Below, one piece after another: positions 17,919 to 59,919 of a stretch of 64,000 nt of DNA (position 1 is the first letter of the stretch; the number at the start of each line of letters is the position of its first letter). Under the pieces are notes generated by a model. That model saw only the letters and a program-made list of their open reading frames with translations. It made no database searches and was not told the DNA's origin. The translations under genes were made by a program, and so were the position numbers. This DNA is from Thiobacillus denitrificans (GTDB lineage Bacteria > Pseudomonadota > Gammaproteobacteria > Burkholderiales > Thiobacillaceae): contig NZ_LDUG01000007.1 in the NCBI RefSeq assembly GCF_001530125.1, forward strand, positions 1-64,000, in the 5' to 3' direction.

Positions 17919-19022
17919 ATGCGTTTATTGCCCTTGTTTGTGATGCTTAGCCTGGCCACCTCGGGCTGCGGCATGATCGAATCCAAAAAGATCGACTATA
18001 AATCGGCCGGCAAGCTGCCGACACTGGAAATGCCGCCCGACCTCACCGCGCCGGCCGGAGACAACCGTTACGCCATTCCCGATACCCAGGGCAGCGGCAC
18101 CGCCACCCTGTCGACCTACAGCCAGGAACGCCAGACCACGCCGAGCGGCGTGCAAACCCTGCTGCCCGCGCAGGAGAAGGCCCGCATCGAACGCGCCGGC
18201 ACTCAGCGCTGGCTGGTGGTGCAGGCGACGCCGCAGCAGGTATGGCCGGTGATCAAGGATTTCTGGCAGGAGACAGGCTTCATCGTCAATCTGGAATCGC
18301 CCGAAACCGGCGTGATCGAAACCGACTGGGCGGAAAACCGCGCCAACATCCCGCAGGACGTGATTCGCCGCACCATCGGCAGGGTGCTCGACGGCCTGTA
18401 TTCCACCGCCGAGCGCGACAAGTTCCGCACCCGCATCGAAGCAGGCAAGGAAGGCGGCACCGAAATCTACGTCAGCCACCGCGGCATGATGGAAGTCTAC
18501 GACTCCGCGAACCAGGACAGGACAGTGTGGCAGCCGCGTCCGGCCAACCCCGAGCTCGAGGCCGAAATGCTGCGCCGGTTGATGCTGCGCTTCGGCGTCG
18601 AAGAAAGTCGCGCCCAGACCCTGCTGGTCAAACAGCAGACGCCGGAACAGGCGCGCATCCTCAGTGAAGCTGGCACGTCGGTGCTGGAAATGGACGAGAA
18701 TTTCGACCGCGCCTGGCGTCGTGTCGGCCTGGCGCTGGATCGCGTCGGCTTTGCGGTGGAAGACCGCGACCGTTCCAAGGGCGTGTACTTCGTGCGCTAC
18801 ATCGATCCCGGTATCGACAACGACAGCAAGCGCGACGAAGGCCTCCTGTCCAAATTTGCCTTCTGGCGAGGCAAGAAAGAGCAGGCCTCGCCGCAATTGC
18901 AGATCGTGGTGAACGAGGCGGGCGAGAAGAGCCGGGTCAGCGTCACCGGTACGGACGGCAAGCCGGCCGACACCAGTACGCAGACCCGCATCCTCAACCT
19001 GCTGCATCAAGAATTGAAGTAA
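17919..19022 (+). CDS. bamC: outer-membrane assembly lipoprotein BamC
   Basis: This 367-aa lipoprotein of the BAM complex helps insert outer-membrane proteins. The N-terminus MRLLPLFVMLSLATSGCGM ends in a lipobox (TSGC), followed by the unstructured KIDYKSAGKLPTLEMPPDLT segment conserved in BamC (NlpB). Two helix-grip domains follow (RWLVVQATPQQVWPVIKDFW; ENFDRAWRRVGLALDRVGF). I chose ATG 17919 with TTTAGGA before it. The TAA stop originally overlapped the next gene's ATG (TAATG); a MITE-like element now separates them. Confidence 0.93.
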   Translation: MRLLPLFVMLSLATSGCGMIESKKIDYKSAGKLPTLEMPPDLTAPAGDNRYAIPDTQGSGTATLSTYSQERQTTPSGVQTLLPAQEKARIERAGTQRWLVVQATPQQVWPVIKDFWQETGFIVNLESPETGVIETDWAENRANIPQDVIRRTIGRVLDGLYSTAERDKFRTRIEAGKEGGTEIYVSHRGMMEVYDSANQDRTVWQPRPANPELEAEMLRRLMLRFGVEESRAQTLLVKQQTPEQARILSEAGTSVLEMDENFDRAWRRVGLALDRVGFAVEDRDRSKGVYFVRYIDPGIDNDSKRDEGLLSKFAFWRGKKEQASPQLQIVVNEAGEKSRVSVTGTDGKPADTSTQTRILNLLHQELK

Positions 19023-19023
19023 T

Positions 19024-19221
19024 GGACACGTCTAGAAATCGTAGCGAGCGGTCATCAGCCGGGTGCGCCCGGAGCGCAGGAACCGGAGTGTATGTGGGTA
19101 TACATGAGGATTCCGAGCACCGGACGCCCCACAAGGGGACTCCGACTTTCTACGGGCTGAAGCCCGTGAAAGATCGTATGCGCCCGGATCATGATCGCGC
19201 AGTAGATTTATAGACGTGTCC
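19024..19221. mobile_element. 198-bp MITE-like element inserted at the bamC/MBL junction
   Basis: The ends are near-perfect inverted repeats: TGGACACGTCTAGAAATC at 19023-19040 against GATTTATAGACGTGTCCA at 19205-19222, with one mismatch in 18. It is flanked by AT on both sides, fitting a 2-bp target duplication. Removing the element rejoins ...GTAATGCGG..., in which the bamC stop overlaps the next gene's ATG. There is no transposase. The ATG left at 19022 opens a frame of 63 codons running through nearly the whole element to a TAG at 19211-19213, eight bases before the working ATG at 19222. The internal sequence includes palindromic stretches around 19093-19110. Confidence 0.75.
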
Positions 19222-19964
19222 ATGCGGTTTGCCAGTCTCGGCAGCGGCAGCGGCGGTAACGGCCTGGTGATCGAGGCCGGCGCCACCCGGGTGCTGATGG
19301 ATTGCGGCTTTGGCCTGGCCGACAGCCAGGCGCGGCTGGCTCGGCTGGGCTTGCAGGCGTCCGATCTGGCCGGCATTGTGGTGACCCATGAACACAGCGA
19401 CCATATTGGCGGGGTGGGGCGGCTGGCGCGCAAGCACAAGCTGCCGGTATGGCTCACCGCCGGCACCCTGGTGATGGCGCAGGACCTCGACGGCGTGGCG
19501 GTGCAGGTGATCGACAGCCATGCGGCGTTTGCGGTGGACGGTCTGGAAATCCAGCCGTTTCCGGTGCCGCACGATGCGCGCGAGCCGGTGCAGTACGTGT
19601 TTGGCGACGGCAACCGGCGCCTCGGCGTGTTGACCGATACCGGCAGCGATACCCTGCATATCGAGGCCATGCTGGCCGGCGTTGACGCGCTGGTGCTGGA
19701 ATGCAACCACGACGCGGCGATGCTGGAAAACGGGCCGTATCCGGCCAGCCTCAAGCGGCGTGTGGGGGGGCGTTTCGGCCATCTGGAAAACGGCCAGTCT
19801 GCGGCCTTGCTGGACAAGCTGAAGCACGACAAACTGCAATGCGTGATGGCAGCGCATGTTTCACACAAGAACAATACGGCCGCCCTGGCGCAACGCGCGC
19901 TGGCCCGCGTGCTGAACTGTGCGGACGACGATGTGCGCGTGGCCTGCCAGACGGCAGGGTTTAA

Positions 19965-19980
<16 letters not shown>
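19222..19980 (+). CDS. metallo-beta-lactamase-fold hydrolase, YycJ/WalJ-like
   Basis: This protein of about 252 aa starts MRFASLGSGSGGNGLVIEAG, the opening typical of the YycJ/WalJ subfamily. The zinc ligands lie in THEHSDHIGG (HxHxDH), with further ligands at TDTGSDT and, near the C-terminus, AAHVSHKNNT. Family members are exonuclease-like or cell-wall-linked hydrolases; the substrate is not certain. A GTG at 19216, inside the inverted repeat of the adjoining element, is an alternative start. The 3' end overlaps the helicase gene by 16 bases. Confidence 0.85.
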
Positions 19981-23600: not shown

Positions 23601-23755
23601 CCTCTCACCACAGAGGCACAGAGGCACAGAGGCACAGAGAAAAATCAAAAGGGGCTTCTATTCGCGTCCTGTCCGGTGGATAAACCACAGGCAAACGCAT
23701 AACCCATTGTTTATCGATTTTCTCTGTGTCTCTGTGCCTCTGTGGTGAAAGATTT
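23601..23755. repeat. CACAGAG inverted-repeat element, copy A
   Basis: The left arm at about 23605-23647 reads ACCACAGAGGCACAGAGGCA with further CACAGAGG units; the right arm at about 23716-23754 reads TTTTCTCTGTGTCTCTGTGC then CTCTGTGGTGAAAG. The arms are inverted copies around a 70-bp centre. Within the left arm the 9-base unit GGCACAGAG repeats in tandem three times. It ends about 35 bp before the Fe-S oxidoreductase start. A second copy lies at 25117-25222. Confidence 0.7.
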
Positions 23756-25116: not shown

Positions 25117-25222
25117 GTTGAACCACAGAGGCACAGAGACACAGAGGAAAAACAGGATATCGCGACAGGCAGCGCGATATCTTTCTGGGTTTCTCTGTGT
25201 CTCTGTGGTGAAGGGTTTTAAA
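25117..25222. repeat. CACAGAG inverted-repeat element, copy B
   Basis: A left arm at about 25121-25151 (ACCACAGAGGCACAGAGACA) and a right arm at about 25189-25214 (TTTCTCTGTGTCTCTGTGGT) are inverted around about 40 bp, which itself contains GATATCGCG...CGCGATATC. It lies between the Fe-S oxidoreductase and DUF3501 genes and is shorter than copy A at 23601-23755. Confidence 0.7.
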
Positions 25223-59192: not shown

Positions 59193-59430
59193 ATGATCCT
59201 AAAAACCGCAGTTGACCGCTTATCATGTTTCAAAGGCCATATGAAAATTGAGCTTCGTGCCTTCGATGCAGTGTGCCCTTTAGGTGAGTTCACTACGCAC
59301 TCGCTGGCACGTCCAGTCAAGCGCCTTGCTTTGTCGCTCCTCCTTGCCTACCCCGGTAGACAGCGTCATCGCTTCGCGCCAGCCACTCGCCTGAACGCGC
59401 CATCGAGTGCGTCCAACTACGGTTTCTAGG
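59193..59430. mobile_element. MITE-like element inserted at the nuoI start codon
   Basis: Inverted ends: CCTAAAAACCGCAGTT at 59198 onward against AACTACGGTTTCTAGG ending at 59430, with about 80 percent match over 22 bases. The flanks ATGA (59193-59196) and ATGA (59431-59434) are identical, fitting a 4-bp target duplication. Removing the element restores nuoH-TGA-gcgcgcc-ATGAAACGG. There is no transposase. The ATG left at 59193 opens a 78-codon frame through the whole element, ending in TAG at 59427-59429, one base before the nuoI ATG. The interior shows no recognised gene. About 233 bp. Confidence 0.75.
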
Positions 59431-59919
59431 ATGAAACGGATCACCCAATTCTTCGGCAGCCTGCTTTTGATCGAACTGCTGCGCGGCATGATGCTCACCG
59501 GCCGCAATATGTTCGCGCGCAAGATCACAGTGCAGTTCCCCGAAGAGAAAACCCCGCAGTCGCCACGTTTCCGTGGGCTGCACGCGCTGCGCCGCTACCC
59601 CAACGGCGAGGAGCGTTGCATCGCCTGCAAGCTGTGCGAAGCCGTTTGCCCGGCGCTGGCTATCACCATCGAGTCGGAGAAGCGCGATGACGGCACCCGC
59701 CGCACCACACGCTACGACATCGATCTCACCAAGTGCATCTTCTGCGGTTTTTGCGAAGAAGCCTGTCCGGTGGATGCCATCGTCGAGACGCGCATCCTGG
59801 AATACCACGGTGAAAAACGCGGTGACCTGTATTACACCAAGCCCATGCTGCACGCCATCGGCGATCAGAACGAAGAACAAATCGCAAAAGACCGCGCGGC
59901 CGACGCAAAGTACCGCTGA
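59431..59919 (+). CDS. nuoI: NADH-quinone oxidoreductase subunit I
   Basis: This 162-aa ferredoxin-like subunit has two [4Fe-4S] motifs, [12 protein letters not shown] and [16 protein letters not shown] (clusters N6a and N6b). The N-terminal amphipathic start [20 protein letters not shown] and the [19 protein letters not shown] lead-in are standard. The only sequence upstream is the inverted repeat of the element (TTTCTAGG), so its ribosome site is poor. Translation may depend on coupling to the open frame running through the element. nuoJ follows after 24 bp. Confidence 0.97.

Follow-up and report, generated by a model that had tools for sequence, protein, structure and literature searches.

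The 198-bp element that separates bamC from an MBL-fold gene in the window (the whole 64,000-nucleotide stretch of Thiobacillus denitrificans DNA analysed) is one copy of a widespread MITE-like family of structured palindromes. Copies of this family lie at gene boundaries: the right end, in the sense of our model R1, often adjoins a stop codon, and in the Thiobacillaceae either a stop or a start codon. This is a real and unusual placement pattern in an element of known kind. The reading that we favour, with a probability of about 0.55, is that a MITE-like palindrome inserts at gene boundaries, and that in Thiobacillus relatives it would be laid out as a run-through/re-initiation cassette.

A short palindromic element at the bamC–MBL junction

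The features of the junction are as follows.

17943..19022, + strand: bamC (NlpB/DapX lipoprotein), the upstream gene, with stop TAA at 19020-19022 (gene call; PF06804, E 1.5e-47)
19022..19223, + strand: whole element in R1 sense, with inverted arms (R1 match 19022-19224, 88.8 bits, E 1.3e-21)
19022..19040, + strand: 5′ arm, an inverted repeat; the arms covary between loci
19022..19213, + strand: 63-codon ORF from the TAATG junction (ATG 19022) to TAG 19211-19213 (ORF reading; no Pfam match)
19030..19105, − strand: match to Rfam RF02228 sX9 (54.1 bits, gathering score 44)
19128..19181, no strand assigned: nested 54-bp palindrome, missing from the second own-genome copy, with similar stretches elsewhere in the genome
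19205..19223, + strand: 3′ arm, whose last two bases are the AT of the MBL start codon; base-paired to the 5′ arm in the fold prediction
19222..19980, + strand: MBL-fold gene, downstream, with its new start ATG at 19222 (PF12706, E 4.5e-24)

The first-pass annotation had described a short element whose inverted ends carry one mismatch, and this description holds: the element covers 198 bp (19024-19221), with AT at either end. Its arms are 19 nt long and 95% complementary, or 17 nt with one mismatch once the self-complementary AT is left aside. With up to 3 mismatches allowed, 2 arm matches were found in the window, against 0.02 expected by chance. The predicted RNA fold of the element reaches −105.6 kcal/mol (z −8.8), a value equalled by 0 of 200 shuffles. 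The AT had been read as duplicated by the insertion; because AT is self-complementary, such a duplication is indistinguishable from two extra bases of inverted repeat, and the window site has no clean TSD. The copy is short, ends in inverted repeats and carries no transposase, as expected for a MITE. It sits between genes, so that it differs from an RPE, which is inserted in frame inside a protein gene.

The part of the element that holds the nested palindrome was matched by 31 of 36 genome places among the matches listed, many of them partial and some weak. When a strict coding test was applied to 25 loci with relatives of this palindrome in the own genome, 3 (L005, L015 and L018, matches at 1501-1545) fell within protein-coding genes whose frame stays open on either side; a few more look likely. 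A different nested palindrome occupies the corresponding place in the core of four family copies (L069, L074, L080 and L086), where it adds 19 codons, or 57 bp (ORFs of L069 versus L048, and L086 versus L058); the lengths of both nested palindromes, 54 and 57 bp, are multiples of three.

The element belongs to a dispersed family

Members of the family have a core of ∼120 nt, corresponding to the sX9 core and with GTAG close to its edge, flanked by arms of ∼13 nt. With the sX9 model, 30 of 117 family genomes were matched at E 0.001, giving 51 matches, and 18 genomes passed the Rfam cut-off. Model R1, built from 39 sX9-matched sequences, found matches in 133 of 399 genomes of the order; five genomes picked for high counts gave 58, 26, 39, 17 and 9 matches (E 0.001, some of them weak or on both strands). 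Two full copies were found in the own genome with R1 (E 0.1), the window copy and G000:C9:54950-55098, the latter matched on both strands and scoring 48.0 bits with sX9, again above the gathering score. The stop/start junction that harbours this second copy is of TGATG type (CTGATGG...CAGATGG), and the frame opened by the copy is 45 codons long. With two full copies here and up to 58 matches elsewhere, the copies are many and dispersed, as is usual for MITEs.

In the wider genome scan, the taxa among the matches listed included Thiobacillus, Gallionellaceae, Rudaea, Dyella, Rhodanobacter, Xanthomonas and Polaromonas. One plasmid record was matched by DNA, covering 39% of the query, and a plasmid search by peptide gave no match. 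The family table used below for the Thiobacillaceae holds 47 copies at 26 loci, 146-207 bp in size (L071, L073, L085 and L088, weak or cut, were dropped from the 51).

Copies lie at gene boundaries, often at stop codons

In two high-copy genomes, G254 and G357, a stop codon was found within 4 nt of the copy in 26 of 58 cases (null 6.6%, p about 5×10−16) and in 15 of 21 (null 5.3%, p about 3×10−15), respectively. The G357 figure concerns the 21 of 39 copies that fall in fetched regions, the 18 outside being dropped, and the counts for both genomes come from an earlier gene caller, which misread bamC as antisense and was checked by eye on one listing. Start codons were not enriched in these genomes (4/58 in G254, null 7.0%; 1/21 in G357, null 5.4%). 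Of the suggestion that such families target stop/start junctions, placement at these boundaries is supported, being far above chance in G254, G357 and the Thiobacillaceae. The start codon as a general target is not supported: in G254 and G357 it is the stop codon that serves as anchor.

The copies are also oriented. The stop was at the R1-right rather than the R1-left end in ratios of 21:7, 15:1 and 23:2 in three sets. The third set (52 copies, scored within 6 nt: stop right 23, left 2; start right 3, left 4) was drawn from 53 of 119 genome stretches (80 of the stretches were listed), which were selected by eye because they include sequence to either side of the element. These gave 80 hits, from which 20 duplicates on the reverse strand and 8 additional hits that were partial or weak were removed, leaving 52. 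This set has no null and is not fully independent, since at least 6 of its elements (L302, L317, L338, L340, L347 and L362) look like loci of the family table.

Within the Thiobacillaceae, the native gap without the element is at most 20 nt in 18 of the 26 loci, with a median of 6 (the upstream gene of one of the 18, L064, is doubtful). Codirectional gaps of this size make up 0.3% of intergenic bases in own-genome regions, or 88 of 296 gaps if gaps are weighted equally. Both element ends lie within 6 nt of a gene boundary at 11 of 26 loci. Within 5 nt, the R1-right end adjoins a stop at 14 loci and a start at 12, and the R1-left end a stop at 5 and a start at 7, a locus possibly counting more than once. 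Gene calls were home-made, with the caller retrained on 20 own-genome regions, and neighbours are unreliable at L057, L064 and L068. At the NADK-recN and cysM-radA junctions (named by reading the proteins), copy orientation differs between species, which suggests repeated insertion or inversion in place.

IS5-type elements follow a target rule of TNA, 3 bp. A plain selfish MITE with a preference for TNA (stop-containing) or AT targets, followed by loss of the insertions that damage genes, might account for this placement, the ORF and the SD-like arm being by-products of a GC-rich palindrome. Consistent with this, many type A copies of G254 carry, by eye, TGA..TGA or TCA..TCA at their two ends; TGA and TAA stops alone make up 18.8% of TNA-type sites outside genes (670/3,564); and in every set the majority of copies have open antisense frames in the core. 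Yet the 26 of 58 observed at stops exceed 18.8%, the orientation bias described above is unexpected for a symmetric target, and 18 of 26 Thiobacillaceae loci are in gaps of 20 nt or less. We consider this explanation possible, with the balance tipped against it.

Arm complementarity is kept while arm sequence changes

Arm sequence varies with locus and lineage while complementarity is kept: at 26 of 41 pairs, both sides have changed in at least one sequence, and as many as 6 standard pair types occur in the outer pairs. A TIR conserved throughout the family was ruled out, because arms differ from locus to locus. The core edge, CGTAGCGAGC, is mostly invariant in the 39 sequences, but it lies inside the outer arms; in a GTAG REP the tag is unpaired and stands at one end of a palindrome. 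Searches for a parent transposon sharing the arms found none: the pattern search of the own genome gave short arm pairs only, and in the genus arm search (40 of 56 genomes matched) no pair of transposon size was noticed by eye.

The arms are biased in their wobble pairs. Read in R1 sense on unique arms, G.U outnumbered A.C by 39:17, 37:15 and 35:10 in three sets, and loci with more G.U than A.C outnumbered the reverse by 19:6, 16:6 and 16:2 (sign test p 0.015, 0.052 and 0.001). This result bears on the proposal that the element acts in the mRNA, as a hairpin after the stop codon, in sX9 orientation, that serves the stability, processing or termination of the upstream transcript and is hence kept in operons. 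Several facts point that way: the preferred orientation immediately 3′ of stop codons, the entry of sX9 as an sRNA in Rfam, and the position of REPs in other bacteria, which adjoin gene 3′ ends according to excerpts of PMC3733652. A constraint on folding of the mRNA strand was examined through the inverted copies, and found no support. On the strand opposite the mRNA, these copies gave G.U to A.C counts of 12:10 in the Thiobacillaceae, 13:3 in G254 and 31:6 in G357; an excess on that strand (G357), or near-even numbers (Thiobacillaceae), argues against selection for an mRNA hairpin. The G.U excess is on the R1-sense strand, which in most stop-anchored copies is the complement of the mRNA, so that the mRNA of these copies is not the strand in which pairing is best kept. 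At the threshold used, moreover, most relatives lack the family (30 of 117 genomes matched). An mRNA function appears unlikely to us. We read the bias as a constraint on one strand, perhaps in the form of single-stranded DNA; it is no proof of an mRNA hairpin.

A constraint on one DNA strand would also be expected if the element were a single-stranded DNA hairpin mobilised by a putative tyrosine (REP-type, RAYT) transposase. As such an enzyme reads one strand, it would explain both the GTAG motif and the bias for G.T over A.C. The wobble counts and locus sign tests given above are in line with this, as are GTAG at the core edge and the link between RAYT and GTAG that appears in the excerpts of PMC3733652. 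On the other hand, REPs measure 20-40 bp and the element is much longer. The resemblance of arms with TNA-type flank repeats to what we take to be DDE-type ends also counts against a RAYT, and we rate this candidate mobiliser somewhat below the mRNA element.

Empty and filled sites in the genus

The annotation had proposed that the insertion split an ancestral TAATG overlap between bamC and the MBL-fold gene. This finds no support in the 30 bamC-MBL junctions of the genus, because 26 of them hold a spacer, usually of 16 nt (24 junctions; 15 nt in L105 and 25 nt in L122). Spacer lengths were counted in frame by eye, as an automated count met out-of-frame TGA in many rows. One junction of the 30, L112, is a TGATG overlap, and two contain the element, L095 (the window) and L124. 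The closest relative, L096 (97% protein identity), has TGAAGTAATGGCCATGCGG / TGAAGTAATGGCCATG at its junction, either the possible scar of a deletion or an empty site that is itself palindromic.

An insertion at the bamC site shared with L050/L052 was considered and set aside. Local alignments of 94-95 nt gave identities to the window core of 92.6% for L048, 91.6% for L049 and 89.5% for L050; the core being nearer to L048/L049 than to L050, an independent insertion is possible, not proven. With its empty, filled and possibly scarred sites, this junction offers a countable system for the study of termination-reinitiation coupling.

Open frame and Shine-Dalgarno of the element

The leftover ATG at 19022 had been said to open 63 codons and to stop eight bases before the new ATG, which is what we find, the MBL start at 19222 beginning 8 nt past the TAG. 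Across the family, an ORF of at least 35 codons starts from ATG, GTG or TTG at the 5′ boundary at 20 of 26 loci, in both orientations. In 19 of these 20 its end lies −19 to +9 nt from the 3′ end of the element; in the remaining one, L077, it extends into the following gene. Inversion of the core changes the peptide and leaves the layout as it was.

For that last reason we set aside a genuine small-protein gene (MDTSRNRSER...), which we regard as very improbable. The 63-codon ORF and the similar peptide at several loci speak for it. The ORF has no Pfam match, however, 6 of 26 loci lack an ORF of 35 codons or more, and peptide similarity tracks the nucleotide hairpin.

Orientation-dependent selection on the frame was tested and found weak: the R1-sense frame is open at 8 of 14 same-orientation versus 3 of 14 inverted loci, and the antisense frame at 9 of 14 and 8 of 14, respectively (two loci holding both orientations were counted twice). 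Cores of the other sets are also often open, most frames exceeding the 0.20-0.27 per frame expected from shuffles. As the antisense frame is open whatever the orientation, which has only a weak effect on the sense frame, openness looks largely inherited, mainly as a family trait, and the ORF may be incidental. It had been suggested that insertions were selected to keep translational coupling. The part of this that stands is the frequency of a spanning frame (20/26 loci); selection on the frame itself is weak by the orientation test, and the selection scenario is possible and unproven.

The 3′ arm often reads TAGAGG...ATG, in which an SD-like AGAGG overlaps the stop. Among loci with a start within 6 nt, an SD match of at least 4 nt was found in 16 of 19 when the best member was taken and in 13 of 19 with the first-listed member; such matches occur in 48% of 93 tight genes, so the family excess is modest. 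The window copy has a degenerate SD, AGACG (TAGACG), of AGA type only. The SD-bearing arm was paired with the 5′ arm in four predicted folds.

Returning to insertion at gene boundaries, our favoured reading, we propose that the insertion duplicates or rebuilds the boundary codon, as the TGA/TCA flanks in G254 and AT/ATG in the window may indicate. Neither gene would then be broken, and such copies would survive. In the Thiobacillus group, the frame of the element appears mostly to end about 8-20 nt before the displaced start, and the SD-like AGAGG that often overlaps its stop would be sequestered by pairing with the 5′ arm, as the predicted folds have it. On this view, ribosomes that finish bamC could start again at TAATG and translate the element, translation would melt the stem, and they would re-initiate at the MBL ATG. 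In both orientations, the element would thereby supply a start, an open frame, a stop overlapping the SD, and a stem hiding the SD unless the frame is translated, and so could enter an operon at a stop/start junction with coupling kept. That the element is such a translation-transparent transposable cassette, keeping the two genes translationally coupled, is a tentative proposal, which we place well below the insertion model as a whole. If true, it shows how mobile DNA colonises operons without breaking them.

Relation to known repeats

A MITE named Chunjie (Chen et al. 2008) reportedly sits in an operon without disturbing it, a likeness that we draw from the title alone. In Rfam, sX9 is an sRNA model of 76 nt that covers a single strand. 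In our element this stretch accounts for roughly half of a palindromic repeat that also has arms, and the fold that covaries and shows the G.U bias is on the opposite strand. If our reading is true, what is listed as an sRNA is one of the two strands of a mobile palindrome that lies at stop codons and is preferentially oriented there. sX9 is among the 20 most prevalent families according to an excerpt of PMC9029176. Among the literature matches listed, which include a Xanthomonas paper that names sX9 (PMC10924375), no title or abstract opening treats sX9 as a mobile element, and none reports an SD-bearing MITE arm.

GTAG-tagged REPs, as excerpted from PMC3733652, are likewise palindromic, with GTAG at the core edge, and adjoin gene 3′ ends, and their termini often give TAG to flanking ORFs. 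Our element, of about 150-200 bp with arms, fills stop/start gaps and exceeds their size range. ERIC/RU-1, YPAL/RU-2 and RPE are all small and structured, lack a transposase and have internal open frames, and fusions with other ORFs are reported for them (excerpts of PMC2759123, PMC2229807 and PMC10969869). Unlike these, as far as the excerpts describe them, the present element has a frame running from the upstream stop to just before the next start, and locus-specific arms.

Other MITE-like repeats

The annotation had likened the bamC-MBL site to an insertion at nuoI, and the parallel is confirmed as a second case of this layout: the frame opened by ATG 59193 runs for 78 codons to a TAG at 59427-59429, and a single base separates this stop from the nuoI start, ATG 59431. 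The nuoI element (window 59193-59431) is unrelated to the bamC-MBL element and has arms ATCCTAAAAACCG.../...CGGTTTCTAGGAT. A second MITE group in the own genome (L033, L035, L037, L038 and L042) has an arm, GGGCACTTCTATAAATC, close to that of the sX9 element, and an unrelated core. Most of its copies contain GTCGCGAGGAGCGAAG, and by eye they are flanked by 4-bp W-rich direct repeats (ATTA, TAAT, TTTA). In the genus search, G071 gave 26 arm matches per strand, mostly GGGCACCTCTAAAAATC/T, from a high-copy MITE with a related arm. Within the window, a MITE-like repeat at 442-580 combines AAGGAGACGCTGATTAATC arms with a GCGAGGAGCGAAGCGACG core, that is, a similar core with a different arm, and ACCACAGAGGCACAGAG inverted repeats are found at 23602-23751 and 25122-25209.
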